DNA of 64,000 nucleotides from Segetibacter sp. (GCA_028288485.1 JAQBNO010000021.1:1-64000); one strand, 5' to 3'; numbered from the stretch's first letter, positions 65 through 62,090 are shown. Program-made: numbers and translations. Notes: generated from the letters alone by a model not told the origin.

Positions 65-115
65 TTGAACTAACAGTAGAATATCAATCAACATCGTTGT
101 GTCACTCACTTGTAC
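65..115 (+). repeat. Dispersed intergenic repeat, class A copy (CATCGTTGTGTCACTCACTTGTAC)
   Basis: Core at 92-115 is identical to the copies at 23299 and 55376 on the opposite strand; the upstream box is weak (TTGAACT). Confidence 0.85.
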
Positions 116-180
116 TATTTGTTTTCTGTTTAGCTTTTATGGCGTTTTGCTTATCATGTTATATTTCTTATGTTTTGCTT

Positions 181-204
181 TTCTTTTTTCTTGATAAAAA
201 AGAA
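181..204. repeat. Perfect inverted repeat TTCTTTTTT-CTTGAT-AAAAAAGAA
   Basis: 9-bp arms and 6-nt loop read directly. Confidence 0.6.
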
Positions 205-568
205 ACGGAAAATCGAGCCTGCACCGAAAAGGCTAAAAATTAGCGGGACAGGCTAAAATGAATTGAAAATCGACCACCCCGTAGAATAAAAAATAGTGGT
301 CAAATAAGTAACAACGGAAGAATATAAACGGGCTTTAATAGGACTTACTGATATTGAACATGACCAAACGCCAGTAACATCTATTTTATGTCTTAACGCC
401 TTTTTTTTGAGGTCGATGGAAGAAATAAAAAGCCGCGACTGCAACCAATTGAAGGGCTGAAAAAGAATAGGCATGAAAAATAAATGTTGAAGCCACAGTA
501 GTACAACAGCAAATCATGGAACAATGAAAGGAATGGAATGTTATCGTTCCTTTCTTGAATTTTCTTTG

Positions 569-602
569 GTTACTTTCTGTGTTTCACCACAAAGAAAGTA
601 AC
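569..602. repeat. Inverted repeat GTTACTTTCT...AGAAAGTAAC
   Basis: 10-bp perfect arms separated by 14 nt, just upstream of the cupin gene. Confidence 0.6.
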
Positions 603-674
603 AAGCCTGAATAGGAGAAGGCTTAAGATAAAGAGCGATTTTACATAAAATGCAACACAGAAAACTTACTTAAA

Positions 675-1139
675 ATGAAAACATTATTATTAGCATCAAT
701 AGCGTTGCTTCTAACAAGTTGTATGCAACAAAATAAAAACCGGGAACTACAAGCCATCTTTACAAAAGGTGAAGCAGGTGCAGTCGGTAATTTTACCGGC
801 AAGGCTTGGAACACAAGTTTAGTTGCCAATGATACAGTCTATAACACGCTTGTAGGCAATGTTTATTTCGAGCCGGGTGCAAGAAGCAATTGGCATACAC
901 ATCCGGCAGGTCAAATCTTAATTATTACTGATGGAATTGGATACCACCAAATAAAAGGGCAACCCCGGCAAACAATCAAAAAGGGAGATGTGGTAAAATG
1001 TCCTCCAAATGCGATGCATTGGCATGGCGCAAGCCCTGAAAGCGGTTTACAACAACTCTACATCATTTCGAATACAGAGAAAGGCATTGTACAATGGCTG
1101 CATCCTGTTTCGGATGCAGAATATTATAACGAAAATTAA
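675..1139 (+). CDS. Cupin-domain lipoprotein
   Basis: Lipobox LLLTSC; cupin motifs EPGARSNWHTHPAGQ and GDVVKCPPNAMHWHGA. Confidence 0.85.
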   Translation: MKTLLLASIALLLTSCMQQNKNRELQAIFTKGEAGAVGNFTGKAWNTSLVANDTVYNTLVGNVYFEPGARSNWHTHPAGQILIITDGIGYHQIKGQPRQTIKKGDVVKCPPNAMHWHGASPESGLQQLYIISNTEKGIVQWLHPVSDAEYYNEN

Positions 1140-1264
1140 TGCGGCACCGACTTTATTATTTATCAGGAAGAGTATAGCTTGCTCAATGTAGCAGAACCTT
1201 GTACGGTTATTGAAGTACAATTGTTGAAACAGTTACATAAATCCTCAATTAAAAATTATCAATT

Positions 1265-2362
1265 ATGGAAGCAGTAAGAGCAACCGCAGAAGGAGCAATT
1301 GCCATCAAAGCGAAAGAAGTAAAAGCATTTGGTACTGAAGCTGCAGCCGCAGCCTTACAACAGTTAAACATAAAGCGCAGAAACCTTACCTCACACGATG
1401 TAGAGATTGAAATATTATTCTGCGGTGTGTGCCATTCAGACCTTCACACAGCAAGAAACGAGTGGCATAACACCATTTATCCCTGTGTACCCGGTCATGA
1501 AATAGTTGGAAGGATTGTAAGTGTGGGGGATCATGTAAAGAAGTTTAAACCAGGTGATCATGCAGCCGTCGGTTGTATGGTAGATAGCTGTCGCCAGTGC
1601 GACTACTGTAAGGAAGGCCTGGAACAGTATTGTGAAGTAGGAAATATAGGCACCTATAATTCACCCGATATACACCTGGGCACGCAAACTTATGGCGGGT
1701 ATTCAGAAAGCATTGTTGTAGATGAAGCCTTTGTTTTGCGGGTGCCCGAAAACCTCGACCTGGCAGCTACTGCACCTTTGTTATGTGCAGGCATCACTAC
1801 GTTTTCGCCCTTGAAGCATTGGAATGTGGGCCCCGGCAAAAAAGTAGGCATTGTTGGTATTGGAGGTTTGGGCCACATGGGAGTTAAACTGGCTAAAGCA
1901 ATGGGTGCAGAGGTTATTGTATTTACCACTTCAACTTCAAAAGTTGAAGATGCAAAACGTTTGGGTGCAGATGACGTGATCCTCTCGAAAGATGATGAAC
2001 AAATGAGCCGTTATGCAGGCAAGCTTCATTTTGTTTTGGATGCCGTTTCCGCACAACACGATATCAATGCTTATCTGAACCTGTTAAGAGTAGATGGTTC
2101 GTTGGCATTGGTAGGAGCACCTGAACATCCGCTTCCTGTGGCAGCCTTCAGTCTTATTCCTTACCGCAGAAGTTTTGCTGGCTCAATGATTGGTGGCATT
2201 GCTGAAACACAGGAGATGCTTGACTTTTGTGGTAAACACAATATCGTTTCGGATATAGAGATGATCAACATTCAGCAAATCAATGAAGCCTATGACCGTT
2301 TGCTAAAGGGTGATGTAAAATATCGCTTTGTAATTGATATGGCTTCGCTGAAAAATCAGTAA
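1265..2362 (+). CDS. NAD(P)-dependent zinc alcohol dehydrogenase (YahK/AdhA-like MDR)
   Basis: CGVCHSDLHTARNEW, PCVPGHEIVG, structural-zinc cysteines CRQCDYCKEGLEQYC, GIGGLGHMGVKLAKAMG. Confidence 0.93.
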   Translation: MEAVRATAEGAIAIKAKEVKAFGTEAAAAALQQLNIKRRNLTSHDVEIEILFCGVCHSDLHTARNEWHNTIYPCVPGHEIVGRIVSVGDHVKKFKPGDHAAVGCMVDSCRQCDYCKEGLEQYCEVGNIGTYNSPDIHLGTQTYGGYSESIVVDEAFVLRVPENLDLAATAPLLCAGITTFSPLKHWNVGPGKKVGIVGIGGLGHMGVKLAKAMGAEVIVFTTSTSKVEDAKRLGADDVILSKDDEQMSRYAGKLHFVLDAVSAQHDINAYLNLLRVDGSLALVGAPEHPLPVAAFSLIPYRRSFAGSMIGGIAETQEMLDFCGKHNIVSDIEMINIQQINEAYDRLLKGDVKYRFVIDMASLKNQ

Positions 2363-2363
2363 A

Positions 2364-3098: not shown

Positions 3099-3152
3099 GT
3101 GGCTGCTTAAACGAAATTATTCCTGAAAATAAACTTATAGGAGGCTTTTAAA

Positions 3153-4990: not shown

Positions 4991-7093
4991 ATGAAACCAA
5001 TAATTTTACTCTCCCTGCTCGTTAATTCCGTTATTACCTTTTCACAAAATCGCTCTGACTTAAATCCCGCCCTCGCTCCCTTTTACCATGGCGTTGCATC
5101 AGGCGATCCTACATCCAACAGTGTCATTATCTGGACAAGGGTAACAACAACTAATTCGAACGCGCTGGTAAATTGGCGTGTAGCAACAGACACTGCCATG
5201 AGAAACATTGTGAAAACCGGCTCGGTATTTACAGATGCTTCAAAAGATTTTACCGTAAAAGCAGATGTAACTGGCTTGTTAAGTGACCGGTTTTACTACT
5301 ACGAGTTTGACTTCAATAGCAAAATGAGTCTCAGGGGACGGACTAAAACGGCACCTTCAGCTGCAACGGCGAATGTAAGGTTTGCAGTGGTAAGCTGTAG
5401 CAACTATGCGCATGGTTATTTTAATGCTTATAAAGCTATTAAAGACAGAAATGATGTTGATGCAGTTATTCATTTGGGTGACTATATTTATGAATACGGT
5501 AACGGCGAGTATGGCTCGTTATTCAATCTGCAGCCCGCAACTGAGACGTTGGTCTTGTCGGATTACCGGGTGCGGTATAATTACTACCGGCTTGATTCAA
5601 ACTTAATGCGGTTGCACCAGCAGTACCCATTCTTCAACGTGTGGGACGATCATGAAAGTGCCGATGATTCGTATACTACGGGTGCCGGGAATCATACCGA
5701 AGGTGTAGAAGGAAGCTGGGTAAACAGGAAAGCAGCGTCTGTAAAAGCTTACCACGAATGGTTGCCAACAAGAGTTAATGGTACAGCCGGTGATGTCATT
5801 TACCGTTCGGTACGGTATGGAAACCTTGGCGAACTGTTTTTTCTTGACACAAGGCTGAAAGAGAGAGACAAGCAATACAACGTCAATTTACCGTCATATT
5901 TACAAAACCCACAAAGAAAATTAATAGGAGCAGCACAGCTCAGCTGGTTTACCTCGTCTGTTACCAATAGTCCGTCGCAATGGAAAATTATCGCGCAACA
6001 GGTAATGATGGCTCCTCTCAGGTTATTAAGTGTACCTGCGAATATGGATCAATGGGATGGGTATGCGGGCGAACGAAACCGGTTATATAATGTAATACGA
6101 AGTAAAAGTAATGTAGTTGTTTTAACCGGTGACATTCATAGTTCCTGGGCTAGTGAACTGCCCGATAATCAGTACGTACCTCGTACACTCTTTACGCCTT
6201 GCTTCAATTCTGCAGGTGTTGAATTTGTTGTTACCTCTGTTACCTCGCGTGCTCAAAAGTGGTTGAACGGTGTTGCCCAACCTGTTATTTACAAAACCAA
6301 TTCCCATATTAAATATGCCGAGCTTGCGGGTCGGGGCTATGGCATCATAGACTTGCGGGCAGATAAAGCACAGCATGAGTGGTATTTTGTTTCAACCATT
6401 GCTTCTCCCACCTTTACTACAGCATTCGCAAAAGCCTATTATGTAAACAGCAATAGTAAATGTTTGAACGAAACAACCGTTGCAACGGTTGCTGCCCCTA
6501 CTAAAAAAGGTGTGCAGGCTCCACGTCTTCCCCGTAGATCCGTTGCGTTACGTGAAACGAATATTGATATTACCACTTCTCAGGATGGTAATAAAACAAT
6601 ACTTGAATGGACAGCTGCAACAGAAGAAAACTGCGAGGTATTCGAGGTGCAACGGTCTATAAATGAAAAAGATTTCGTTACAGTTAGCAGGGTTAATTGC
6701 GCTGGCTCCGCTGCAGCAAATAAATATAGCTTTACCGACAACAATATGGCTGCGGTTAATTATTACAGGATCGCCCATCGCTCTTCAAAAGGGGCAGTTC
6801 AATACAGCCCGGTAGCATTGGTAAAACTAAGAAATGATTACACTCATTACTGGTATCCCAATCCCACCGCCGGCGACGCCAAGCTGGAAATAAACGCCCA
6901 AAAAAATTCTTCAGGTACATTACGGGTATATGACGCTTCAGGTAGAATTGCCCTTACTCAATACTTAAAAATTGTTGCCGGTTCAAATATCTATACCATA
7001 AATACAGCTACTCTGCAAAAGGGATTATATGTGTACGGCATATTTTTACAGGATGAAAAAACCGCTTTGCACGGAGCTTTTATAAAATTATAA
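4991..7093 (+). CDS. PhoD-like alkaline phosphatase with C-terminal T9SS sorting domain
   Basis: FYHGVASGDPTSNSVIIWTRVT, HLGDYIYEYGNGEYG, WDDHESADDSY, LTGDIHSSWASEL; C-terminal WYPNPTAGDAKLEI...LQKGLYVYGIF. Confidence 0.92.
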   Translation: MKPIILLSLLVNSVITFSQNRSDLNPALAPFYHGVASGDPTSNSVIIWTRVTTTNSNALVNWRVATDTAMRNIVKTGSVFTDASKDFTVKADVTGLLSDRFYYYEFDFNSKMSLRGRTKTAPSAATANVRFAVVSCSNYAHGYFNAYKAIKDRNDVDAVIHLGDYIYEYGNGEYGSLFNLQPATETLVLSDYRVRYNYYRLDSNLMRLHQQYPFFNVWDDHESADDSYTTGAGNHTEGVEGSWVNRKAASVKAYHEWLPTRVNGTAGDVIYRSVRYGNLGELFFLDTRLKERDKQYNVNLPSYLQNPQRKLIGAAQLSWFTSSVTNSPSQWKIIAQQVMMAPLRLLSVPANMDQWDGYAGERNRLYNVIRSKSNVVVLTGDIHSSWASELPDNQYVPRTLFTPCFNSAGVEFVVTSVTSRAQKWLNGVAQPVIYKTNSHIKYAELAGRGYGIIDLRADKAQHEWYFVSTIASPTFTTAFAKAYYVNSNSKCLNETTVATVAAPTKKGVQAPRLPRRSVALRETNIDITTSQDGNKTILEWTAATEENCEVFEVQRSINEKDFVTVSRVNCAGSAAANKYSFTDNNMAAVNYYRIAHRSSKGAVQYSPVALVKLRNDYTHYWYPNPTAGDAKLEINAQKNSSGTLRVYDASGRIALTQYLKIVAGSNIYTINTATLQKGLYVYGIFLQDEKTALHGAFIKL

Positions 7094-8692: not shown

Positions 8693-10378
8693 ATGAAACG
8701 GGTCATCTTCCTTCTGCTTTTAACTGTAACTGCTGCGCTATTTATATTTCTTAAAAACCCAGCTGCAGTTAAAAAGAATAAACGCCCTAATATTATTGTA
8801 ATACTTGCCGATGACCTGGGATTTTCTGATGTTGGCTGTTATGGGGGAGAAATTCGCACACCTAATATCGACTACCTCGCCGCAAATGGTTTAAGATTTA
8901 AGCAATTCTACAATACGTCGCGTTGTTGTCCTACCCGAGCCGCTTTATTAACAGGATTATATAATCACGATGCAGGTATAGGAGAGATGACTGAAGACCG
9001 CCACCTGCCAGGCTACCGAGGACACATTACAGAAAATGCAGTTACAATAGCCGAAGTGCTCAAGGCGACAGGTTATCATACGGGTATGGTGGGTAAATGG
9101 CATGTATCTAATACAATAGAACAAAAAGGGGCACAAGCTCAATCTGACTGGTTAACGCATAAAACCAACTATCCTGCTTTTTCTCCCCTCGAACAATATC
9201 CTGTTAACAGGGGCTTCGAAAAATACTATGGGAATATTTGGGGTGTCGTTGATTTTTTTGATCCCTTCAGCCTGGTAAACGGAACAACACCCGTGACCAG
9301 TGTTCCTGCAGGCTATTACCATACTGACGCCATCAATGATACGGCGGTGGCTTATATAAAAGAATTCAGTAAAGAAGAGAAACCCTTTTTTCTTTACGTA
9401 GCTGAAACTGCACCTCATTGGCCGCTGCATGCTTTGCCGGAAGATATTGAAAAATATAAGGCTACTTACACAGGGGGATGGGACGTAATCCGCGAAGCAC
9501 GTTATAAAAAGATGGTTAACCTGGGTCTAGTAGATCCGGTAAAAGCACCTCTTTCACCCCGGTGGAAAAACGACCTGACATGGGAACAGAACCCGGATAA
9601 AGAATGGGATGCAAGAGCGATGGCCGTGCATGCAGCAATGATCGACCGGATGGACCAGGGCATAGGAAGAATTATAAATGCTTTGAAAGAGGCAGGTGAA
9701 CTTGAAAACACTTTGATCCTTTTTTTAAGTGATAATGGCGCCAGCCCTGAAAATTCAGCCGGTTATGGTGCAGGTTTCGACCGTCCCGGTGAGACACGTA
9801 ATGGTCAAAAGATCAGTTTCTCGGTAAAAAAGGATGTAATGCCGGGAGGCGAAACCACTTTTGCTTCAATCGGCGATCGCTGGTCCAATGTAGCGAATAC
9901 CCCTTATCAATATTGGAAAATTGAATCTTATGAAGGCGGTATTCACACACCGCTCATCGCTTTCTGGCCCAAGGGAATTACTGTAAAGAACGGGAGTTTT
10001 ATAAACCAACCCGGACATGTTATGGATTTTATGGCGACCGTAGTTGAGATCACGGGCGCCAAATATCCAACCGAGTTTAACGGAAATAAAATAACGCCGA
10101 TGGAAGGTTCGAGTTTAGCACCGGTTTTTAAGGGAAAACGTTGGGGCGGACACAAGGTTTTGTTTAACGAACACTTCGGTGCAAAATACGTGCGCACAGA
10201 AGAGTGGAAGTTAGTGGCGCGTCCCCGCGAGAAATGGCATTTATACCAAATAAATAAGGATGAAACGGAAATGAATGACGTTGCCGACAGATTTCCCGCA
10301 ATAGTGACACAACTGGATAGTTTATGGAATGATTGGGCAAACAAGCATAATGTACTGCCGAAAACAAAGGGCAGGTAA
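8693..10378 (+). CDS. Arylsulfatase (formylglycine-dependent sulfatase)
   Basis: RPNIIVILADDLGFSDVGCYGGEI; sulfatase signature CCPTRAALLTG; GKWH; FLSDNGAS. Confidence 0.95.
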   Translation: MKRVIFLLLLTVTAALFIFLKNPAAVKKNKRPNIIVILADDLGFSDVGCYGGEIRTPNIDYLAANGLRFKQFYNTSRCCPTRAALLTGLYNHDAGIGEMTEDRHLPGYRGHITENAVTIAEVLKATGYHTGMVGKWHVSNTIEQKGAQAQSDWLTHKTNYPAFSPLEQYPVNRGFEKYYGNIWGVVDFFDPFSLVNGTTPVTSVPAGYYHTDAINDTAVAYIKEFSKEEKPFFLYVAETAPHWPLHALPEDIEKYKATYTGGWDVIREARYKKMVNLGLVDPVKAPLSPRWKNDLTWEQNPDKEWDARAMAVHAAMIDRMDQGIGRIINALKEAGELENTLILFLSDNGASPENSAGYGAGFDRPGETRNGQKISFSVKKDVMPGGETTFASIGDRWSNVANTPYQYWKIESYEGGIHTPLIAFWPKGITVKNGSFINQPGHVMDFMATVVEITGAKYPTEFNGNKITPMEGSSLAPVFKGKRWGGHKVLFNEHFGAKYVRTEEWKLVARPREKWHLYQINKDETEMNDVADRFPAIVTQLDSLWNDWANKHNVLPKTKGR

Positions 10379-14954: not shown

Positions 14955-17900
14955 ATGCTCCGAAGCTTGCTGTATACATTTTTCTTACTGTTAGTATTTA
15001 CGGCCGCTGATGCACAGGAGTTGTCAAATAAAGGCAAAGAGTTTTGGGTGGGGTACGGTTATCACCAGGATATGAAAGCTGCAGGAAATGCTTTGAATGA
15101 CCAGGATATGAGGTTGTATTTTACTTCAGATGTAGCCGCCGCAGTAAAAGTAGAAATACCGGGTGTAGGTTGGTCTAAAACGTACCAGGTTACTGCAAAT
15201 GCAGTTACTGAGTCGGACCCGATACCAAAAGATGGTGGACAAGATTCGCGTTTAAATGAAGAAGGGACCTTTAATAGGGGCATACATATAACCAGCAATC
15301 AACCTATTGTTGCCTATGCTCATATATATAGTTCATCGAATTCAGGTGCTTCACTGTTATTTCCGGTTGAAACACTAGGGTCGGATTATTATTCATTGAA
15401 TTTCACACAGAAAGCTAATACTGGTGACGCGCATTCCTGGGCTTTTGTTATTGCAACAGAAGATAATACCGAGGTTGAAATCACTCCTTCTGCAAAAACT
15501 CTTAAGCACAACGCTGGACAAAGTTTTGTTGTTCCATTAAAAAAGGGAGAAATTTTTAACCTGATGGGTGAGACAACAGGTCTTACGGGAGTGGATTTAA
15601 CAGGAACAAGGATCCGTTCGGTACGGAACGGAATTCAAAGTTGTGAAAAAATAGCAGTTTTTTCGGGAGCCGGCCGTGTTTCAATTAATTGTGATAACGC
15701 CGCAGACGCCCCTTCCGCCGACAATCTGATACAACAGGTATTTCCACGGAGTGCCTGGGGAAACAAGTATCTTACTGTTCCTACTGCCAAACTTTCAAAT
15801 AACTATTTCCGCATTGCAGTAAACGATCCCTCTACTGTTGTTACAGTTGGTGGCGTTCGACTTACAAAACTCGAACGCAATTTTTACTATGAGATTATCG
15901 CAAACACACCACAAAGCATTGTTTCGGATAAGCCGGTAATGGTAGCTCAATATATCACTTCGAGTGATGCGAACGGTTCGAAGCCCTGCGGAAATTCATT
16001 TGGTGCCTATGGAGACCCGGAAATGATTTACATAAGTCCGATAGAACAAACAATTGATAAGATAACATTAAACTCAACCAGGCATTATCAAATTGCCTAT
16101 CATTATATTAATGTAATTATTAAATCTTCAGCCGTCCAAAGTTTTAGGTTAGATGGAGTACCGGGGGCTGGTTCTTTTTCGACTCATGCTGGAGATCCTG
16201 CTTTTTCTTTTGCGACGTTTGAAGTTAAGGCAGGCTCTCATAATCTCCGGGCCGATGCCGGATTTAATGCAATTGCCTACGGATATGGAGAAACTGAGTC
16301 GTACGGTTACAATGCCGGTACTAATATAAAAGACTTAAACCGCTTTATTACTATTCAAAACCCCTATAGCCCGGTAGACATTCCTGTTACTTGTAAGAAT
16401 ACTATTTTTTCTCCTTCTCTCACGTTACCTTACCAGCCTTCATCTATCATTTGGGATTTTGCCGACAATCCCAATCTTTCTCCTTCACAAGCAATTCCGA
16501 TAAGCAATCCCGTTGTATCCACGAGTTATGTGAAAGATGGAGTTACTCTGTACGTTTATACTTTGCAAACGCAATTCACATTTAACGGAACCGGTACTTT
16601 TCCTGTTAAGGTCACTACCGATAATTCTTCTGCAAACAGTTGTAACGGCCAACAAGTAAATACTTTTGATATAACTGTGCTCCCGGCACCGATCGCTGAT
16701 TTTACTTACACCCATTCAGGATGTGCCACAGACGCTGCCACTTTTAAAGATGCTTCAACCGATAACGGAAAACCTTTATATAAATGGGTATGGGATTTTG
16801 GAGATGGACCTGCAGATACAAGGCAAAATCCGCCAAAAACTTTTTCTGCTGCAGCAACCTATAATGTGAAATTAACCGCGATAAATGATATTGGCTGTTT
16901 CGGAGAAACTACAAAACCACTTATAATAGATCCACAGCCTGTTGCTGATTTTAATTTTTCTTCGCCGGCCTGTGTTAACAGCCCGGTTACTTTTACCGAC
17001 GCTTCAACAATTCCGTCGGGCAGTATTACCAAATGGTATTGGAATTTCGGCAACGGTAAAACAACGACCGAAACTTCAAAAGCCCCTATAACCAGCATGT
17101 ATGAAACGACGGGACCGAAGAGCGTTTCATTGCAGGTCGAAAACAGTTCCGGCTGTAAAAGTGCAGTAGTTACTAAAAGTATTACCGTATATGCAAGTCC
17201 AACGGTTGATTTTGATTTGGCTGCAGTTTGTTTACCTTCCGGAGTGGCAATGTTTAACAATCTTTCTTCGATTAGTGATGGAACTGCTGCCTCACTCACC
17301 TTTTTATGGAGTTTTGGCGACGGAGGTACTTCTACAGACAAAAATCCTTCCTATCCTTACAAAACTACCGGGCCGTTTAGTGTACTTCTTAAAGCAACTT
17401 CTGCTGCCGGCTGCAGCAAGGATTCAACAAAGATTGTTTCAAATATATACGAACAGCCAAAAGCAGTCTTTACAAATTCAGCTAAGTTATGTGTTCCAGA
17501 CAGCATTTATTTTACCGATAACAGTACTGCATCTAATAGTTCTGTCACGGAATGGAATTGGAGTTTTGGTGATGGAACGACGAGTAAACTTCGAAATCCA
17601 GCCAAAAAATATGCTGCCAAAGGGTCTTACATTGTTACATTATCTATTAGATCTGCCGCAGGCTGTATTTCTCAGACTGAACAAAAAACAATTATTATCA
17701 ATGAAGCTCCTACCGCTGCTTTTGCCATTTCTAACTCTACCTGCGAAAATCAGCCCGTTACAATAACTGATCAATCTAAGGCTAATTCAGGCAGTATTCA
17801 ATCCTGGTCTTGGATTTTTGGCGACGGAACTTCAACCACTAATCAAAGTCCCAATCCTTTTTCAAAAACCTATAGTATCCAGGGTGATTATACAATCAAG

Positions 17901-23394: not shown

Positions 23395-23793
23395 TCAGTT
23401 AGTTTTTGTTTCCTGGCCAGGCTTTTCGATAATTGAACCCTTGTTATTAAGGTGCATGATGAAATAACTGATAAAACAAATAAACAAAAGAATAAGAAGG
23501 GTAAGTATTACCCACTGAAAATCTTTTATTTTTCCTTTTTCAAGCCGGTGCTTTTTACTGTGAAGTTGCTGGTGAAGCTTTTGATTTAACTGGCTTACGT
23601 GCTTTTTTACTCGTTCAGGATTGTTTATTTGTTGTAGTCCGTCAATGGCATCGCTTTCAAAAGAATTATTGGTGATTTTTTCTTCAATCACTGCTTTCTC
23701 CTCTTCCGGAGTATTGTCGTCCAGGTATTTTAGCAGTTCCTCATCACTAACCTGCTGACCATTATCCGATAATATTTCTTTCCAGTCAGCCAT
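23395..23793 (-). CDS. Putative anti-sigma factor-like single-TM protein
   Basis: Overlaps the sigma factor gene by 8 nt; N-terminal DEELLKYLDDNTPEEEKAVIEEKI and a TM helix WVILTLLILLFICFISYFIM. Confidence 0.6.
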   Translation of the reverse strand: MADWKEILSDNGQQVSDEELLKYLDDNTPEEEKAVIEEKITNNSFESDAIDGLQQINNPERVKKHVSQLNQKLHQQLHSKKHRLEKGKIKDFQWVILTLLILLFICFISYFIMHLNNKGSIIEKPGQETKTN

Positions 23794-29947: not shown

Positions 29948-29978
29948 TAAAACTGTATGTTTCCCGTTTTATTTTTTT

Positions 29979-30032
29979 TGACACCTGCAGTTGTATTTCA
30001 AGGACACATCGTTGCGTCGCATTACGTTTATC
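29979..30032 (+). repeat. Dispersed intergenic repeat, class C copy
   Basis: T-run, TGACACC box, 28 nt, CATCGTTGCGTCGCATTACGTTTATC. Confidence 0.8.
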
Positions 30033-30372: not shown

Positions 30373-30425
30373 GATGAACGAAATGCGACGCAAGGATGAT
30401 CCTTAGAAGTCTGAAGCCGGTGTCA
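30373..30425 (-). repeat. Dispersed intergenic repeat, class C copy
   Basis: Minus strand: TGACACC box, 27 nt, CATCCTTGCGTCGCATTTCGTTCATC. Confidence 0.85.
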
Positions 30426-30447
30426 CAAATTCGAATGAAAAGCAATC

Positions 30448-31176
30448 TCAGGTTACCCGAAAAACGTTTTCATCTTCTACAATCGGTAAATTTTTAAATT
30501 TCTGAATAACCCGCGCCACTACTACTACATCCTTTTCGCAATAATTAATGATCCTGGACAAATTGTTTTCTTTATAGTAAACATCCTGCACCATGCTACC
30601 GTCAATATCATCTTTTGAAGTTGGAATGCCAAGTATGCTTGCGAGCAAATGCAGGGAAGTATAATTTTTATAATCACCAAACTTCCACCATTGCAATGTA
30701 TCGGCCATACAAATTTCCCACGGCTTTGCACCGTAAATATGTAAATAAGATGGTAAAGCAATTTGATGGATTACAAGTCTGCGGCATAAAAAAGGAACAT
30801 CAAATTCACGAATATTATGGCCGGCGAACTGAAATTTGGGCCGATGCTGGAAAAACTTGTCGGCGAGTTCAATAAACTGGGTTAATACTGCCGTTTCGTT
30901 GTCGCCGGCAATACTTTTGATTTTTAAACATATTCTTTCTGCTTTGTCTACGTAGAAAAATGCGGTAGAGATACACACCACTTTACCAAATTCTGCCAGG
31001 ATTCCTGCCTTTTGACGGTAAACTTCTTCCACATTGAAGTTTTCTGGCACTGTTTTTGAAATTTTGTCGAAAAAAAGTGTACCGGCTTCTGCAGGCAATT
31101 GTGTATACTTTTCTACCTGCGGTACAGTTTCAATGTCGATAATAAACAAATCAAAAAGCGATAAATTATTATTCAA
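30448..31176 (-). CDS. Predicted 3'-5' exonuclease (PolB-like, DEDD family)
   Basis: FIIDIETVPQ...FAGHNIREFDVPFLCRRLV...KDDIDGSMVQDVYYKENNLSRIINYCEKDVVVVARV. Confidence 0.88.
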   Translation of the reverse strand: MNNNLSLFDLFIIDIETVPQVEKYTQLPAEAGTLFFDKISKTVPENFNVEEVYRQKAGILAEFGKVVCISTAFFYVDKAERICLKIKSIAGDNETAVLTQFIELADKFFQHRPKFQFAGHNIREFDVPFLCRRLVIHQIALPSYLHIYGAKPWEICMADTLQWWKFGDYKNYTSLHLLASILGIPTSKDDIDGSMVQDVYYKENNLSRIINYCEKDVVVVARVIQKFKNLPIVEDENVFRVT

Positions 31177-35744: not shown

Positions 35745-35975
35745 AGGGAAACTTCAGCGTAAAATTCAATCTATAAAAATAGTGGAGTTAAAATTAGTTA
35801 TAAGATAAAGTATAAACGTAATTAGCTGCCTGAGATTGTTAATTCCGGCCGTATTTCGTGGATTTTAGCTTAGGCTAAGAAAAGTTAAAGGGATTTTATG
35901 AGCCCCACAATACCACTATTATGAGTCATCCTACTAATGAACTCGTTTTTGCTGTCTTGGTTTTTAATGTTTTTT

Positions 35976-36020
35976 AGATGCCGGCTTTTTGTACTATAAG
36001 AATCATCGTTGCTACGCTCA
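35976..36020 (+). repeat. Degenerate copy of the dispersed repeat
   Basis: T-run, AGATGCCGG, 28 nt, CATCGTTGCTACGC. Confidence 0.45.
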
Positions 36021-36067
36021 GTTCAACTTTTAATTCTTTGATAGAACTTAGCGTAGTATTTTTTTTC

Positions 36068-36108
36068 CCCTGAGCGAAGCCGAAGGGTACACTGAGCTTG
36101 CCGAAGGG
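36068..36108. repeat. Direct repeat CTGAGCGAAGCCGAAGGG-TACA-CTGAGCTTGCCGAAGGG
   Basis: Two imperfect tandem units read directly. Confidence 0.7.
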
Positions 36109-36364
36109 CCGCAATTCGTTCGCGTGCATTGGCAGTGGCAACAAAAGAGTAAAGTTCGTGCCTGTTTTTATCGGTTGGTATTATAATGTTCGCTACTGCC
36201 AACAGTTATTGCATAAGTGACATCGGCCGCTTGGGCGCCAGGCGAATGCTTTCGGAAACCAGCGAAGCGGTTTCAGCAACAAGTGCGTGGAGTGCGGGTG
36301 AAATAACGAAGCCAGGCGGCTTGAGCTATAACTGATTGCATTAAAGGTTCAATTTGCGTCGTTT

Positions 36365-36404
36365 TGGGCCGCCCCCTAAGATTTTTTGCGTCGCACGCTT
36401 GTAC
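36365..36404 (+). repeat. Dispersed intergenic repeat, class B copy, shortened upstream part
   Basis: GGGCC...TTTTTTGCGTCGCACGCTTGTAC. Confidence 0.75.
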
Positions 36405-36470: not shown

Positions 36471-36524
36471 GATGAACGAAATGCGACGCAACGATGATCA
36501 ACCGGAGACTCCAGAGCGGGTACC
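36471..36524 (-). repeat. Dispersed intergenic repeat, class C copy
   Basis: Minus strand: TTTTTTTGGTACC, 28 nt, CATCGTTGCGTCGCATTTCGTTCATC. Confidence 0.9.
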
Positions 36525-36534
36525 AAAAAAACGC

Positions 36535-36966
36535 TTACAAGTGTTTCCTGCCCGACAGGTACTTTAGAAAGAACTCCTTGCTCCTAAGTACTTCAATATT
36601 GGAAAAGTAAAAATCATGAACGTCTTCAGTAACAATACAATCACAATTGCTGCCAAGTGCCGCGTAATATTCCAGGCCGTCTTCAAAATCTTTAACCGCA
36701 CTGTTTTGTAACGTATTTTTTACCGAGGTTTCAGTAGTATCGGCAATTCTAATGTTATCGCACAATATTGAAATCTTTTGTTTGGCTATAGATGCTTTAA
36801 ACTTTTTTTCAGCAAAATAGAAAGCTATAGCAAGACATACTGGTGAGGTGAATACTTCAAATTGTTTAAAATCAGCAAGGCTTAAAATACGGGAGGTATA
36901 AGTAAATAGTGGGTACTCTTTATTTAATACCGAGACTACAATGTTGGCATCAACAAAAATTCGCAT
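36535..36966 (-). CDS. PIN-domain protein (type II toxin candidate)
   Basis: MRIFVDANIVVSVLNKEYP...DFEDGLEYYAALGSNCDCIVTEDVHDFYFSNIEVLRSKEFF. Confidence 0.88.
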   Translation of the reverse strand: MRIFVDANIVVSVLNKEYPLFTYTSRILSLADFKQFEVFTSPVCLAIAFYFAEKKFKASIAKQKISILCDNIRIADTTETSVKNTLQNSAVKDFEDGLEYYAALGSNCDCIVTEDVHDFYFSNIEVLRSKEFFLKYLSGRKHL

Positions 36967-40286: not shown

Positions 40287-40293
40287 CAAAAAT

Positions 40294-45051: not shown

Positions 45052-46461
45052 TTAACTTGTTACTCCTTCTTCTACCTGCCGGTTATTTTTCTTAAACCAA
45101 TAGTACATCGGCACGCCTGTAAGCATCAGGACTACTCCAATAGCAGCCTCGCGTGGACGGGAAAAAAGCGTATTGAAAATTAATACGGCACAAAACACGA
45201 TAACAATTGCCGGCACAACAGGGTAGCCCCAAACTTTGTAAGGACGGGGAGCGTTGGGCATTTTTTTACGTAAGATGAACACACCTAAGGTAGTTGCGCC
45301 GTAATAGATAAACACCGCGAAAATGATCATATCGGTAAGCTGGTCGAAGGTTCCGGAAAGCACCAGCAAACAGGCCCAGACGCACTGGTACAATAGGGAA
45401 TTGGCAGGCGCCTGTGCATTGTTTAATTTTGAAACCTTACGAAAAAACAAACCTTCACGCGCCATAGCAAAATAAGGACGGCTACTGGCTAATATGGTAG
45501 CGTTCGTGCATCCTAAAGTAGTTACCAATATGAGGATAGAAATAAATAAAGCGCCATTTTCTCCCCAAAAGCTGCGCACTGCTTCTACGGCTGCTATTTT
45601 ATTTCCAGCTGTGTAAATCTCCTCCAGTTCAGGGATAGATAACAATGAAAGATAAGTGGCATTTACCAACATATACAATGCTATAATTATAAAAACGCCA
45701 ATGGCTATTCCACGTGGAATAGTTTTCTTAGGGTCTTTTACTTCCCCGCCTATATATCCAATAGACGCCCATCCCTGGTAGCCCCAAAAAGCGGCTAACA
45801 TGGCGGTAAACACTGCACTTACCGTAACGGGAGTATTGTTAGTGGTTTCCATATTAAAGGATCTGCTGATATCAACATGACCACTGCCGAAACCTGCAGC
45901 GATTATTGTAAATATGCCGGCAAACACCAATAATAATATGCCAGAGCTAACACCCGCACCCGTTTTAATTCCTTTGGTATTTACCCACGTTAACAGGATA
46001 ATCAAAATGATAGCTGTAAGCTTTACATTAAAATCTGCAAAAGGGTAGAAGACGCCACCAATGCTGAAAGCGGTCCACGAAGAAAGCAACGGAGGAACTG
46101 AAATAATACTGTTAAAAGATTGGGCAAATACGTAAGCCAGAGACGAAATTGCGGCAGTTTGTATCACTACAAACAGCGACCAGCCAAATAAGAAAGCAAA
46201 AAAACGGTTGTAAATCTTTTTATAGTAAGCATATTCACCGCCTGTGTCTGCAAGTAAACCCGCAACTTCAGCGTTGCTTAACGCTCCGAACAAAGTAATG
46301 ACCCCTCCTAACAACCAGCAAATTAATACCCACCCCGAAGAATGTAATTCCGCCGCCATGGGTGCCACTTTTTTGTAAACCCCCGAGCCGATGATATTAC
46401 CAATAACAACTACAATTACAAGACGTAAACCAAGCGATCTGTTGAGATGGGATGTACTCAT
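45052..46461 (-). CDS. APC family amino acid permease
   Basis: VIVVVIGNIIGSGVYKKVAPMAAEL...LLGGVITLFGALSNAEVAGLLADTGGEYAYYKKIY. Confidence 0.93.
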   Translation of the reverse strand: MSTSHLNRSLGLRLVIVVVIGNIIGSGVYKKVAPMAAELHSSGWVLICWLLGGVITLFGALSNAEVAGLLADTGGEYAYYKKIYNRFFAFLFGWSLFVVIQTAAISSLAYVFAQSFNSIISVPPLLSSWTAFSIGGVFYPFADFNVKLTAIILIILLTWVNTKGIKTGAGVSSGILLLVFAGIFTIIAAGFGSGHVDISRSFNMETTNNTPVTVSAVFTAMLAAFWGYQGWASIGYIGGEVKDPKKTIPRGIAIGVFIIIALYMLVNATYLSLLSIPELEEIYTAGNKIAAVEAVRSFWGENGALFISILILVTTLGCTNATILASSRPYFAMAREGLFFRKVSKLNNAQAPANSLLYQCVWACLLVLSGTFDQLTDMIIFAVFIYYGATTLGVFILRKKMPNAPRPYKVWGYPVVPAIVIVFCAVLIFNTLFSRPREAAIGVVLMLTGVPMYYWFKKNNRQVEEGVTS

Positions 46462-49434: not shown

Positions 49435-49492
49435 AATAATGTAAATAAAAAAGAGCGGCTGATTTTAGCCGCTCTTTTTTATTTACATTATT
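49435..49492. terminator. Very long perfect terminator hairpin (26-bp stem, 6-nt loop)
   Basis: AATAATGTAAATAAAAAAGAGCGGCT-GATTTT-AGCCGCTCTTTTTTATTTACATTATT. Confidence 0.93.
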
Positions 49493-52092: not shown

Positions 52093-53250
52093 TTATTCTT
52101 CTTCTTTACTTCCCCATATCCATTCAACTATTTGTTTCGCATTTGTTTCATTGTCGAACATCTCATCGAGTAATTGATGGCGGAGCACCACATCTTCAAC
52201 GTCCAATGGCTGCTCATATAATTTGGCGATAATTTCCTTAAAATCATTCGCGCCCGAAGCAATATAGCAAGCTTTTTCAAGACCACTACCTTCAACAGTT
52301 TGTTCATTAACCAGGCAATGCCGGCCATTAAATAAAGCGTTGATCAGCTTCAGTTTTATGCCTGTTGCATTATACGACGGAATAATATTTACATGTGCCT
52401 TTGCAATCAGGTCCTGCATCTCCTTTTCGCCGGGGTTTGCTATCAGGCAAGCAGTGTTGCTTTTGCTAAGTAAATTACTTAAGTGCTTTGAAGGATTTTT
52501 TCCGGCAATTACAAATGGAATTTGCATGTCGTTGAAAATATTTTGAACCAGCCATACCGCGGCTTTTTCATTTTCTGCCACACTCAAATCCCCGTGGTAC
52601 AGGCAAAAGCAACCTTTTCCCGTGATCTCACCTACCTTCCATTGCGGGATAAATAATGGCAAAAACTGCACGCTGGTGCAACCGAGTTCTTTGTAAGTCT
52701 CCGCATCTTTTTTAGTCACACTCCAAAAAACAGCCCTCTTTGCTATCTTAGATTCGTAGCGTTTCAAAATTTTACTTTCCCATAAAAAATATAGCTTTTT
52801 TAAAAGCGAAGAAGTATTCTCGTATAAATAGTGGTAATAAACATGTTCTACATTATGAAGCCGTACATAACATTTCCGCTCGTTAAACCTTTTGTCATTC
52901 AATAAATACGTACAGTGAACGCCTTCCATTAAAATGGGATAATTATCCTCAGCAAGCCTGCTTAACAATTTTTTGTTTTTCCTGCTGCTGACAATGAACG
53001 GGTATTTGATAGAAACGGCTGTAATGCTTTTTTCCCTTTTGTAATAATTCACTTCCTGGCAAAAACGGTTAAGCATTGGCTGCTCGCCTCTGCCGTAATC
53101 GAAACAATGAAGACAAATTTTTACGCCTCGTTGCTGTAGTGCTGCCAATTTGTAAAACAGGTCAAACACACCGCCATAATCAACAGGGTAGGGAACGTTC
53201 AGACATATTATATGGAGGTGTTTATTCAAATTGTTTTCTTCTGTAGCCAT
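52093..53250 (-). CDS. Glycosyltransferase (family 1/4-like)
   Basis: HLHIICLNVPYPVDYGGVFDLFYKLAALQQRGVKICLHCFDYGRG; CLYHGDLSVAENEKAAVWLV. Start set to MATEENN at 53250 because the ORF extension reads through the dispersed repeat. Confidence 0.85.
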   Translation of the reverse strand: MATEENNLNKHLHIICLNVPYPVDYGGVFDLFYKLAALQQRGVKICLHCFDYGRGEQPMLNRFCQEVNYYKREKSITAVSIKYPFIVSSRKNKKLLSRLAEDNYPILMEGVHCTYLLNDKRFNERKCYVRLHNVEHVYYHYLYENTSSLLKKLYFLWESKILKRYESKIAKRAVFWSVTKKDAETYKELGCTSVQFLPLFIPQWKVGEITGKGCFCLYHGDLSVAENEKAAVWLVQNIFNDMQIPFVIAGKNPSKHLSNLLSKSNTACLIANPGEKEMQDLIAKAHVNIIPSYNATGIKLKLINALFNGRHCLVNEQTVEGSGLEKACYIASGANDFKEIIAKLYEQPLDVEDVVLRHQLLDEMFDNETNAKQIVEWIWGSKEEE

Positions 53251-53292
53251 CATTAGTTCTCTTATTAACATCGTTGCGTCGCACACTTGTAC
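53242..53292 (+). repeat. Dispersed intergenic repeat, class B copy
   Basis: TGTAGCC box, 27 nt, CATCGTTGCGTCGCACACTTGTAC. Confidence 0.88.
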
Positions 53293-55907: not shown

Positions 55908-56022
55908 TTTTTTTTGTCTGCGCCTGTTTTTGTGTGCAAATTTTAAATTATTAACCGGAACCGGGGCGCTTTTTGTCCCTCCTTTAGTTACTCCTGTTCC
56001 GTACTCAAACATTGTAACCTAT

Positions 56023-58185
56023 ATGTTATCTCAACCTATTAATGTGACTTTCGATATCGGCGGTGGCCGCGAGGTTACTATCGAAACCGGTAAATTGGCC
56101 CGGCAGGCTGACGGCGCTGTTACTGTTCGCCAAGGCAATTGTATTTTATTAGCTACCGTTGTAGCTAACCGTGAGGCCAGGGAAGGCCAGGACTTTTTCC
56201 CGCTTTCTGTTGACTACCAGGAAAAATTTGCTTCTGCAGGTCGTATCCCCGGCTCTTTCTTCAAGAGAGAAGCGAGGCTGAATGATTATGAAATATTGAC
56301 CAGCCGGTTAATTGACCGCTCTCTACGTCCGTTATTCCCTGATGATTATTTCTGCGAAGTGCAGGTTTTGGTAAGCTTAATATCAAGCGATGCCGAAGTA
56401 ATGCCCGATTCGTTAGCATGTCTTGCCGCTTCTGCAGCATTGGCTGTTTCTGATATTCCTATTAAAGAAATTATCAGCCAGGCAAAAATTGCAAAAGTTG
56501 ATGGTCAAATAGTTGTTAATCCAACACGTTCTGAATTAGCGAGAGCTGAATTTGAATTTATAATAGCTGCTACCGACAAAAACCTGATGATGGTGGAAGG
56601 TGAAGCCAAAGAATGTTCGGAGGCTGACCTGGTAAGCGCTTTACAAACAGCACACGAAGCTATAAGGGCGCATATTAAGGCGCAGCAGGAACTTAGAAAT
56701 AAAGTTGGCGTACAAGGCGTAAGAGAGTATGCTAAACCTGCACAAAACGAAGAAATTAAGCAAAAGGTAACTGAGTTCGCTAAACAAAGAATTGGCCTTA
56801 TAGCAAGAAGCGGATCGAGCAAACATGCAAGAAGTGAGGCTTTCAGTACCCTAAAAGAAGAGCTTATTGCAAGTTTAGGCGAAGAAGCAACTGATTCGGA
56901 TAAAAAACTGGCAAAGAAATATTATGCTGATCTTCAATGGGAAGAGGTAAGAAATATGATGCTGGATGACAGGATCCGTTTGGATGGCCGGGGTTTGGAA
57001 GACGTTCGTGGATTAGCAATGGAAGTGGATCCTTTGCCAACGCCACACGGTTCTGCTTTGTTTACAAGAGGTGAAACTCAATCACTTACAACGGTTACTT
57101 TCGGAACTAAATTAGATGAATTATTAATTGAAAGCGCTGCAAAGTCCGACTACAGTAATTTCATTCTTCACTATAACTTCCCGCCGTTCTCAACCGGTGA
57201 AGTAAAAATGATGCGTGGAGTTGGACGTAGAGAAGTGGGTCATGGTAACCTCGCTATGCGTAGTTTGAAACAAATGATGCCAGGCAACGATTATCCTTAT
57301 ACCGTACGTGTGGTAAGTGATATCCTTGAAAGCAATGGTTCATCTTCAATGGCAACTGTTTGTGCTGGTTCCCTTGCATTAATGGATGCGGGTGTGCCCG
57401 TTCAGAAGCACGTTAGTGGTGTTGCTATGGGTTTAATTACCCGTGAAGATGGGAAATATGCTATTCTAACCGACATCCTCGGTGACGAAGATCATCTTGG
57501 CGATATGGACTTTAAAGTTACTGGTACCCGCGATGGTATTTGCGGTGTGCAAATGGACATTAAAGTAGATGGTTTAAGTATGGAAGTGATGACCGAAGCT
57601 TTACAACAGGCTCGTCGCGGTCGTTTACATATACTGGATGCAATGTATGATTGTATGCCGGAAGCCCGGGCAGAGGTTAAACCTCATGCTCCACGCATGG
57701 AAAAACTGTTTATTGATAAAGAATTTATCGGTGCAGTTATCGGGCCCCAAGGTAAAGTTATACAGGAAATTCAACGCGAAACCGGTACTACCATCAATCT
57801 CGAAGAGGTTGGTAATGTAGGTGAGGTAAGTATTTTCTCACCGGTGAAAGAAGGAGTTGACAAAGCGGTAGCATGGATCAAGAGTATTGTGGCTGTTCCT
57901 GCAGTAGGCGACGTGTATGAAGCGACAGTGAAAGGCATTAAAGAATTTGGTGCTTTCGTTGAATTCATGCCGGGCAAACAAGGTTTATTGCACATAAGTG
58001 AAATAAGCTGGAAGCGTCTTGAAACAATGGAAGGCGTTTTGAATGAAGGTGATGTGGTAAAAGTTAAGTTGATTGGTTTAGATCCAAAGACCGGTAAATT
58101 TAAACTTAGCCGCAAAGCATTAATGCCTAAGCCTGAATTTAAACCAAGAGAACAAGAACAAAGAGGTCCGGACAACAGGGGATAA
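56023..58185 (+). CDS. pnp: Polyribonucleotide nucleotidyltransferase
   Basis: RNase PH domains, KH (FIGAVIGPQGKVIQEIQRETGTTINLEE) and S1 domain. Start at MLSQPINVTF (56023). Confidence 0.97.
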   Translation: MLSQPINVTFDIGGGREVTIETGKLARQADGAVTVRQGNCILLATVVANREAREGQDFFPLSVDYQEKFASAGRIPGSFFKREARLNDYEILTSRLIDRSLRPLFPDDYFCEVQVLVSLISSDAEVMPDSLACLAASAALAVSDIPIKEIISQAKIAKVDGQIVVNPTRSELARAEFEFIIAATDKNLMMVEGEAKECSEADLVSALQTAHEAIRAHIKAQQELRNKVGVQGVREYAKPAQNEEIKQKVTEFAKQRIGLIARSGSSKHARSEAFSTLKEELIASLGEEATDSDKKLAKKYYADLQWEEVRNMMLDDRIRLDGRGLEDVRGLAMEVDPLPTPHGSALFTRGETQSLTTVTFGTKLDELLIESAAKSDYSNFILHYNFPPFSTGEVKMMRGVGRREVGHGNLAMRSLKQMMPGNDYPYTVRVVSDILESNGSSSMATVCAGSLALMDAGVPVQKHVSGVAMGLITREDGKYAILTDILGDEDHLGDMDFKVTGTRDGICGVQMDIKVDGLSMEVMTEALQQARRGRLHILDAMYDCMPEARAEVKPHAPRMEKLFIDKEFIGAVIGPQGKVIQEIQRETGTTINLEEVGNVGEVSIFSPVKEGVDKAVAWIKSIVAVPAVGDVYEATVKGIKEFGAFVEFMPGKQGLLHISEISWKRLETMEGVLNEGDVVKVKLIGLDPKTGKFKLSRKALMPKPEFKPREQEQRGPDNRG

Positions 58186-59788: not shown

Positions 59789-59872
59789 AATTTCCGGGAC
59801 TGCCGGGAATTGGTTGCCAGCGAAGACGCGGACTATTGAGCAACTGCTAATCTGCGGAAAGCTCGGTTACCC

Positions 59873-59905
59873 TTAAAAAAAATTCATTCCGATAAAGGAA
59901 TGAAT
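59873..59905 (-). terminator. Terminator hairpin on minus strand
   Basis: Minus strand ATTCATTCC-TTTATC-GGAATGAATTTTTTTT. Confidence 0.75.
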
Positions 59906-59935
59906 ATATGCAATGCAGGAATATTTGAATGCTCG

Positions 59936-60094
59936 TTAACTTCCACGGTTAGCGCCTGTAGACCTAACCTTCTTCGTAACAGCCGCTGGTTTAGCAGACC
60001 CCGCGCCTTTTATAAACTTGGAGTTATTGCCCTGCACTTTCTGATTTTTATTTCCCTGGTTATCACCTTTTTTATTGTTTGTGGGTAGCGACAT
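59936..60094 (-). CDS. Small basic, Lys/Asn/Gly-rich protein (52 aa), absent from supplied ORF track
   Basis: MSLPTNNKKGDNQGNKNQKVQGNNSKFIKGAGSAKPAAVTKKVRSTGANRGS*; a minus-strand terminator lies immediately downstream. Confidence 0.6.
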   Translation of the reverse strand: MSLPTNNKKGDNQGNKNQKVQGNNSKFIKGAGSAKPAAVTKKVRSTGANRGS

Positions 60095-60249
60095 TTTTAA
60101 TAAATTTTGTTATAACAAATATAGCAGTTTGAACTGAAATGAAAATAGAACAGGTAATTATAATCGTTCGGACTGCAACAATCAGAGGCGCGCTATAATC
60201 AGCGTCCTTTTTCTTTTCAGCCTCGTTATTATTGCAAACGAAATTAATG

Positions 60250-60444
60250 CTACTTGATTTTATCTGTAGAAATGCCACTGCTTCCGGTATCCATTCTTGC
60301 TGTATCCATTGCAATAATGTCGGACCCTCCGGAATTGCCAGGGCCGCCTATTGTAGTATCACTTTCCGATATATTATTTGTGTTTTCACCCGGGCCGCAT
60401 GCGGTAGCTAAAAACAACAGGCCTGCACAAAATAGTTGTTTCAT
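60250..60444 (-). CDS. Small lipoprotein
   Basis: MKQLFCAGLLFLATACGPGENTNN..., lipobox LATAC. Confidence 0.65.
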   Translation of the reverse strand: MKQLFCAGLLFLATACGPGENTNNISESDTTIGGPGNSGGSDIIAMDTARMDTGSSGISTDKIK

Positions 60445-61167
60445 GTTTTGGTATTGTAATTAACAATTTTGGTTCTACTTAAGTGAGCTTAGATATAATC
60501 AAAAGAAATTCAATTTTCCTGCCACTAATAGTTATAGCGCAATCTATGCCCTTGCTAACAACGAGCGCAATTGCCTTCCATTACAATCGCTACGGAAAAA
60601 GGTTTTCGATAAATTAAAATAGGAGAGAGTACAAATAAAAAAACAGGCTGTCGAGTTCCTGATTATGCATCGTCAAGACGTCGGCTGCCTGTTGCGTGGG
60701 AGAATTTTTGCAGAAACTATTCGTCGGCTTCGCTTTTTAATCACAGTTGGTTATAAGAAGTCCGGGTTTGTTTCACGCCCTCCCCGGGGCTTTGTCTACC
60801 ATGTTTCCTCGCACTTTGCATCTAGGCAAATTTTCTGTGTTTCGGAATTTGTTCTGCAAGTTTCGCTTGCTTTTCACCGTTTTGCGGTGTCAGAATAAAA
60901 CGATTTTGATATCAAATTCTAAACTGAAATAAAGTTATGATTTAAATTTATGATCTTAAAGTAAAAGTTATTCACTTTTTTAATTTTGCTTAAAGGAAAT
61001 CGAAAAATGAAAAAAGGAGCAAACTTGTGTATTAGAGTGATAGCGCTTACAAAAAAGTAAAAGAAATGGATGTGAGGAGGTGCTAACAGGTATTTTCTTT
61101 TAAAAATTCAAAACTTGCTCGCTAAGAAATTAATTTATTCTATCTTAACGACATAAAACTAATAATA

Positions 61168-61596
61168 ATGAGAACTGTAGCCCAAATACTAACCCGCAAA
61201 GGAATTTCTGTTGTAACAGTAGAACCAACCACTTCTGTAATAGACGCACTGAAAATGATGGCTGACAAAAATATTGGTTCGGTTGTGGTGATGAGTGGAG
61301 AAAAGTTTTTAGGAATTATGACAGAAAGGGACTATTCACGTAAAGTAGTTTTAAAAGGAAGATCGTCTGATGATACCACAGTTGCAGATATCATGTCTTC
61401 AGAGTTTCCAACAATTACACCTGGTGATAACATAGATCATTGCATGAAGTTATTGTCGGGTTACAACCTCCGTTATTTACCTGTAATGGATAAAGGTAGC
61501 CTTGCAGGCATCATTTCTATTAACGATGTAGTAACAGAAACGATACTTAGCCAGTACGAGACCATTTCGTATTTACAGGAGTATATACAGTCTTAA
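61168..61596 (+). CDS. CBS-domain protein
   Basis: Two CBS units: TSVIDALKMMADKNIGSVVVMSGEKFLGIMTERDYSRKV and DNIDHCMKLLSGYNLRYLPVMDKGSLAGIISINDVV. Confidence 0.95.
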   Translation: MRTVAQILTRKGISVVTVEPTTSVIDALKMMADKNIGSVVVMSGEKFLGIMTERDYSRKVVLKGRSSDDTTVADIMSSEFPTITPGDNIDHCMKLLSGYNLRYLPVMDKGSLAGIISINDVVTETILSQYETISYLQEYIQS

Positions 61597-61607
61597 ACTT
61601 CCCCGTT

Positions 61608-61910
61608 TTATCTGATGGTGGTGCCTTGTAAATTTTTTACAGGTTGCTGCCTTGTAAAGTATTGCCAGATCCACATAATAGTATAGGTGGGTATAAAATC
61701 AGTGAACGGAAGAATCTCTTCCGCAAAATTGAATACGCCCCCAAATGCACCCTTTACTCCACCAAAGGTTTTGTAAAAAATAAAACCGGAAAGGGGAGCC
61801 CATACTATATCGGCAAATTCTCCTAAAAAAGGCAGCGCAAAAGTTGCATAGCCAATAATGTCCATAATAATACAAAATAGCAGGGAAGGCTTGTGTTTAT
61901 CCATCATCAT
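61608..61910 (-). CDS. Small membrane protein, hypothetical
   Basis: LFCIIMDIIGYATFALPFLGEFADIVWAPLSGFIFYKTFGGVKGAFGGVFNFAEEILPFTDFIPTYTIMWI. Confidence 0.75.
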   Translation of the reverse strand: MMMDKHKPSLLFCIIMDIIGYATFALPFLGEFADIVWAPLSGFIFYKTFGGVKGAFGGVFNFAEEILPFTDFIPTYTIMWIWQYFTRQQPVKNLQGTTIR

Positions 61911-62038
61911 TTAAGTTTGGTTTTAATAATCAAATTACCGACCAATTTTTATGGGTGCCTTTTGCCCCTCGATCGTTCTTCTTTTGACATTCAGGTGTTA
62001 TTGCGATAAAAAAACTTACGTTGCCATAATAAGCAACT

Positions 62039-62090
62039 GTACAAGGGAGTGACACAACCGGAGATGCATAACGAACCACCGTTAGTACCA
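62039..62090 (-). repeat. Dispersed intergenic repeat, class A copy
   Basis: Minus strand: TTTTATGGTACT, 28 nt, TCCGGTTGTGTCACTCCCTTGTAC. Confidence 0.82.

Follow-up and report, generated by a model that had tools for sequence, protein, structure and literature searches.

The window analysed here is a stretch of 64,000 nt, contig C101 of a Segetibacter sp. genome of 6.375 Mb in 220 contigs, and it carries a dense family of short asymmetric repeats with the conserved core CATCGTTG-YGTCRC-N-CTTGTAC, which includes a small palindrome. Copies pointing in the same direction are strongly depleted at spacings of up to about 3 kb, and copies pointing in opposite directions are not. A first-pass annotation of the window had listed 16 spans, and the motif was present at every position and on every strand that it gave; the list already displayed a near-perfect strand alternation, although the same-direction exclusion was absent from that reading.

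From 5' to 3' the element consists of a T-run with a G, a variable left module (a CCGGC-like part and a TATTNAA or TTCATAGCAT part), CATCGTTG, a core variant, CTTGTAC or CGTTCATC, and a weakly conserved tail of ~20 nt. Its length, earlier put at roughly 50 bp, comes to about 60-75 nt overall, as the element reaches past the core and includes the 5' T-run. The core subfamilies in the sample described below are A (GTGTCACTC, the GTGTCAC type; 142 copies), B (GCGTCGCAC; 129 copies), C (GCGTCGCA-T-CGTT; 50 copies), D (CCACGCTCG; 31 copies) and E (CTACGCTCAG; 31 copies). Subfamilies A and B differ by paired changes flanking a central T (GTG-T-CAC and GCG-T-CGC), so that the palindrome is preserved. 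The window alone gave 16 profile matches at E<=0.01, and its copies and copy parts are the following:

63..122 (+), subfamily A (GTGTCAC), profile 38.6 bits
7188..7243 (+), subfamily B (GCGTCGCAC), past the stop of gene 4991-7093(+), profile 28.6 bits
8520..8581 (-), subfamily B, profile 32.4 bits
10457..10518 (+), subfamily A, past the stop of gene 8693-10378(+), profile 45.2 bits
23295..23356 (-), subfamily A, ~40 nt beyond the stop of 23395-23793(-), profile 42.9 bits
25317..25397 (+), single copy with an insert of ~25 nt between GTTG and GCGTCGCATT, by sequence
29971..30032 (+), subfamily C (GCGTCGCATT-CGTT), profile 31.1 bits over 29971-30021, right end by sequence
30373..30430 (-), subfamily C, directly past the stop of 30448-31176(-), profile 27.1 bits over 30384-30430, right end by sequence
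35927..36404 (+), long unit of 475 bp with left element module and CTACGC hairpin (36004), matches at 77-82% identity elsewhere; then CCCTGAGC..GCCGAAGGG repeats, end TTGCGTCGCACGCTTGTAC (36381-36404)
36471..36536 (-), subfamily C, at the stop of 36535-36966(-), profile 21.1 bits
42439..42490 (+), copy with a degenerate right end (CTTCGGC instead of CTTGTAC), profile 23.3 bits
44975..45038 (-), subfamily C, ~15 nt beyond the stop of 45052-46461(-), profile 33.9 bits
48602..48648 (+), left module only, right half different, profile 16.4 bits
53233..53299 (+), subfamily B, overlapping the predicted start of 52093-53271(-), profile 44.8 bits
55369..55435 (-), subfamily A, profile 45.2 bits
58266..58334 (+), subfamily A, past the stop of 55930-58185(+), profile 30.1 bits
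62027..62098 (-), subfamily A with CTCCGG before the core, profile 29.3 bits

Two pairs involving items previously set apart as partial or degenerate are not separate copies: 25317(+) and 25375(+) are the halves of one split copy, and a single nested 475-bp unit has 35976(+) as its left part and 36365(+) as its right part. This unit sits inside an older element, itself split after CATC; in the quarter of the genome that was sampled it has roughly a dozen relatives, with near full-length matches at ~7 further sites (77-82% identity) plus shorter ones. In long forms, hairpins and CCCTGAGCNNGCCGAAGGG repeats follow CATCGTTG, after which the right end resumes. Inserts are found between CATC and GTTG and between GTTG and CGTC. 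Modules are also mixed, the two main left types being found with most core types. In Segetibacter RYN_279, inserts of ~250 bp, which have CTAC..GTAG-like ends and contain ACACGGATGACACGGAT repeats, adjoin the core and are followed by a second CTTGTAC (L106:3293-3561, L151:4086-4327 and L169:29-299). Terminal inverted repeats are absent and the profiles give asymmetric ends. When folded as RNA, the short forms A, B and C had mean minimum free energies equal to those of shuffled sequences and a consensus structure limited to a 3-bp stem; the rarer long form E was clearly structured, above shuffled.

The repeat family is real and not a product of chance. With up to 2 mismatches, the core pattern CRTYGTTGYGTCRCNCNCTTGTAC occurs at 677 sites in the genome (341 forward and 336 reverse) and the same pattern read backwards at 0, while a profile built from the copies had 191 matches in 818 kb of real sequence and 0 in its order-2 Markov version. 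Over the 1.617 Mb sampled, the profile found 399 copies, or one per 4.05 kb, in agreement with the recurrence of about 4 kb read from the window. The earlier exclusion of CRISPR and tRNA was upheld and extends to Rfam RNA, as the element matches none of the Rfam covariance models. No paper on these repeats was found in the library searched, subscription titles lying outside its coverage.

Genes were predicted with a simple hexamer model. Although 78% of the sequence is coding, 377 of the 399 copies are intergenic by these predictions, 6 fall within genes and 16 at gene edges, and the claim that the element is essentially confined to intergenic DNA thus holds for 377 of 383 placeable copies. 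Among gaps of at least 100 bp, 83 of 148 convergent, 203 of 508 tandem and 42 of 177 divergent ones are occupied, and an element is present at 217 of the 757 gene ends that have room for one. In 242 copies (sense) the T-run side is turned toward a gene stop, and in 135 (antisense) toward a gene start; in sense copies the T-run mostly starts 1-100 nt past the stop codon.

Among all pairs of copies closer than 2 kb, only 8 had the same direction and 91 opposite directions, with 46 same-direction pairs expected when orientations were shuffled; the corresponding counts were 41 and 119 at 2-4 kb, and 669 and 676 at 4-20 kb, parity being reached beyond 4 kb. Against a null model of gene architecture, in which element patterns were redrawn per gap type with the genes fixed, same-direction pairs at 0.5-3 kb were depleted six-fold, or by ~84% (17 observed vs 106 expected; binomial p 7e-17), whereas opposite-direction pairs matched expectation (106 vs 103). 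Neighbours in opposite directions thus lie as independent placement predicts, and it is the same-direction ones that are missing. Within 3 kb the exclusion was total for the most intact copies (score of at least 40; 0 same vs 16 opposite) and weak for degenerate ones (score <25; 6 vs 12), and its range is about 1.5-3.5 kb. Regular-expression matches, obtained without profile software, gave the same picture above 500 nt. The exclusion was replicated in G001 (3 same vs 21 opposite, <2 kb), in G035, which belongs to another genus (0 vs 13, <3.5 kb), and, by hand counts from place lists, in G009 (1 vs 11, <3 kb) and G005 (2 vs 10, <3 kb), and it recurs at loci of other species. Most of these genomes are short-read drafts, in which repeats so short should not collapse at kilobase spacing. 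The avoidance suggests that a direction-sensing process acts on the elements. We hold it possible, if only tentatively, that they mark a hitherto undescribed, homology-independent DNA process of this kind in Chitinophagaceae, which forbids same-strand copies within ~3 kb and ignores the other strand; element-specific excision, insertion immunity and a polar chromosome signal are its candidate forms, and the same tentative judgement covers them jointly.

The alternative with most in its favour, although rather unlikely, is that these are ordinary selfish intergenic repeats subject to RecA-dependent or slippage deletion between direct repeats, with nothing element-specific needed. As deletion predicts, the depletion hits direct repeats only and fades with distance, and within 3 kb it is somewhat stronger for pairs with similar cores (at least 20 of 24 bases identical; 2 same vs 31 opposite) than for dissimilar ones (at most 15 of 24; 13 vs 50). 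However, dissimilar intact pairs are still depleted, both when the longest identical core run is at most 8 nt (5 vs 35) and between subfamilies A and B (3 vs 25), which is below the homology usually needed and makes plain homologous deletion an unlikely cause. Slippage deletion is normally restricted to well below 1 kb, which likewise counts against this reading.

Sites per genome ranged from 4 to 1041 within the genus Segetibacter and from 0 to >1000 across Chitinophagaceae; about half of the other genera sampled in the family have copies and several have 0. Sampled genomes of other families in the order had 0 copies each, and among the genomes searched the element is confined to Chitinophagaceae (Segetibacter, Ferruginibacter and others). 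Exact matches, among the matches listed, came from Segetibacter, Ferruginibacter, Foetidibacter, Pinibacter and Chitinophagaceae/Bacteroidota assemblies. Carriage by phages or plasmids was rejected, with no match in phage and plasmid records and 29 matching stretches in IMG/VR. Orthologous gaps were compared with a species of ~77% protein identity, in which four-fold sites are 39% identical (26% by chance). Of the 8 gaps with an element in the target, 5 have one in the own genome too, with matching orientation in every case, whereas of the 27 gaps that were element-free in the target 0 do (p 2e-4). The numbers are small and, as some target loci were picked for holding an element, the own-genome side alone is unbiased. 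In 4 of the 5 retained pairs the subfamily was the same, with 20-24 of 24 core bases equal, and a looser test gave 10/19 vs 7/40 (p 0.012). Such retention near synonymous saturation argues that many copies are old.

This retention of the core despite near-saturated synonymous divergence, together with the placement at gene ends and a spacing that is independent on each strand, would also suit functional chromosomal sites for a polar nucleoid, replication or repair protein, spaced per strand by selection. We consider this unlikely, because copy number runs from 4 to 1041 inside one genus, several genera of the family have 0 copies, the modules are mosaic and nested, and the zero-copy relative G010 yielded no comparable dispersed repeat in a 200-kb sample, an equivalent there being rejected on that result. 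G010 does have an intergenic CAATACCCAATACCC minisatellite (L234-L243).

Our preferred reading, with a probability of about 0.42, is that these mosaic elements are old, arose from mobile DNA and are partly under constraint, and that a putative element-specific factor either removes or bars pairs pointing the same way. It starts from what was observed, namely copy number, placement, mosaicism, nesting, exclusion and orthologous retention; swings in copy number, mosaicism and nesting point to past mobility. Non-coding, non-autonomous and asymmetric, the elements would have spread through Chitinophagaceae genomes and settled chiefly 0-100 nt past stop codons with the T-run toward the gene, many copies then being passed on vertically with the core retained. 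The working part would be the double-stranded core and its small palindrome, which are conserved and which a protein may recognize; an exclusion limited to one strand and blind to subfamily suggests protein recognition over base-for-base homology. Same-direction copies closer than ~2-3.5 kb, of any subfamily, would be lost or never established. As one end of the element cannot stand in for the other, two neighbours could serve as the ends of one unit only if they point the same way; a putative element-specific protein, most likely the element's mover, may read same-direction neighbours in this manner and then remove the DNA between them or refuse insertion there, and opposite-direction neighbours would form no valid pair. 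The account is inferential on three points: an origin by mobility, the existence of the protein, and excision or immunity as what produces the exclusion.

Several results weigh against it. Many copies are old, as their retention argues, and neither a target-site duplication nor an empty/filled pair turned up among relatives ~75% identical in coding DNA, which include no close strain. Counts of Y1/RAYT genes, of reverse-transcriptase families and of IS110 families do not track copy number, no gene family recurs among 265 genes enclosed between copies, and 0 inversions between opposite pairs were seen in 133 ortholog-neighbour comparisons, which speaks against a freely inverting recombinase. Short-homology deletion outside the 24-nt core could cause some of the exclusion. 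On these results we rejected RAYT, reverse transcriptase and IS110 as partners, an autonomous unit or composite transposon bounded by two copies, and free inversion by a recombinase.

Single-strand excision of the HuH Y1/RAYT type on the lagging-strand template, within a window of Okazaki length, would fit the exclusion length of 1.5-3.5 kb and the asymmetric ends, and Bacteroidota have RAYT-like genes, those of subclass 2.6 being associated with atypical structures (PMC6006769). It is nevertheless improbable, as it would spare one orientation and predicts about half the pairs to be lost rather than the ~84% observed, a depletion too strong for lagging-strand-only excision; moreover, Y1 genes are absent from G006 and G034 (80 and 85 copies) and number 7 in G007 (4 copies), and the short forms have no hairpins. 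As a candidate in its own right, the Bacteroidetes subclass 2.6 of TnpA_Y1 (PMC6006769) found no support. Around 31 Y1 loci, few elements lay nearby and none directly flanked the gene as a set. At L029 (G000:C195:8051-8395) an intact Y1 transposase gene has hairpins of its own behind it (GGGTTGGGCTCTGCCCAAC, GAGTTGAGCTCTGCTCAACC), which bear no relation to the repeat; at L030 (G000:C133:90256-90432) a decayed Y1 gene has an element ~1 kb away on either side, the two pointing in opposite directions.

A hairpin precedes the T-run in 16% of copies vs 10% of shuffled ones, so that the GC hairpin and T-run of an intrinsic terminator were not found as a rule, nor did elements and canonical terminators exclude each other, the latter occurring at 28% of gene ends with an element and 23% of those without (p 0.16). 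The element as a terminator substitute was rejected on the latter figures, and terminator-targeted insertion, prompted by a few copies behind perfect terminators, on the overall 16%. An antisense micro-ORF was also rejected: the reverse frame is codon-like (VQxSDTTM), yet open past the T-run in just 53% of copies vs 36-43% for other frames. A 3' untranslated-region RNA signal or transcription terminator is highly improbable, for although most sense copies begin their T-run within ~100 nt of the stop and outnumber antisense ones, the short forms have no RNA structure, canonical terminators are equally frequent whether or not the element is there, many copies are antisense or lie in divergent gaps, and the same-direction exclusion would be left unexplained. 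Between genes at 49435-49492, the window also holds a perfect inverted repeat of 26 nt (AATAATGTAAATAAAAAAGAGCGGCT) that makes a strong hairpin resembling a bidirectional terminator.

Among the candidates first put forward for the window, a palindrome like those of repetitive extragenic palindromic (REP) sequences is not supported, the short forms folding no better than shuffled and showing no RAYT link, nor is an RNA 3'-end element, on the terminator frequencies and antisense copies above. This leaves a repeat that is non-autonomous and derived from mobile DNA, a recognition site at the DNA level, or both, supported by the copy-number swings, the mosaic and nested forms and the orthologous retention.

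Short intergenic repeats are usually accounted for by RAYT-type transposases or as neutral debris. A very dense family with kilobase-scale, strand-specific self-exclusion in several genomes, together with orthologous retention, points to some enzyme or constraint that has yet to be named; how bacterial intergenic repeats spread and are kept up thereby becomes a testable question. Gene-end annotation is affected across Chitinophagaceae, a common soil family. Apart from the repeats, gene 14967-19280(+) of the window, predicted to encode a large surface protein, has internal TGGxxTTTGGxGAxGG units every 252 nt (16791-17851), typical of PKD-like domain repeats.

Miniature inverted-repeat transposable elements (MITEs) and enterobacterial repetitive intergenic consensus (ERIC) sequences are likewise short, non-autonomous and intergenic, but the element here has neither terminal inverted repeats nor a long imperfect palindrome, and no target duplication was seen. 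CGTC-tagged REPs are stem-loops of 20-40 bp in which CGTC is terminal and the tail is CCA-like; they form a superfamily without a dedicated transposase and are reported from Bacteroidetes (Di Nocera et al. 2013, PMC3733652). The present family shares with them the CGTC in its core, the lack of a known transposase and the host group; its CGTC is internal rather than terminal beside a stem, subfamilies A, D and E have none, and the structure is not shared. REPs and REPINs with their RAYTs (Bertels & Rainey 2011, PMC3116915) resemble it in their hundreds of short intergenic copies, in close tail-to-tail pairs, and in being thought mobile yet non-autonomous. They differ in that the common forms here have no palindromic stem-loop (short forms A, B and C), GTAG tag or RAYT link, and no cognate RAYT (Y1) gene with flanking copies was found. 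In Pseudomonas fluorescens, next-neighbour distances of REPs above 200 bp are random (PMC3116915), whereas here same-direction copies are excluded to ~3 kb. The modules of the present element are unrelated to those of the bacterial interspersed mosaic elements (BIMEs) of enterobacteria and are not made of palindromic units (PU/REP), the rarer long form E being the sole clearly structured form. BIMEs are mosaic and intergenic and favour gene 3' ends and convergent gaps; we know of no comparable exclusion described for them. The present family is likewise a mosaic of recurrent intergenic modules with the same preferences, and, while it does not pass the structural tests for REPINs and BIMEs, it is these that it most resembles in behaviour.

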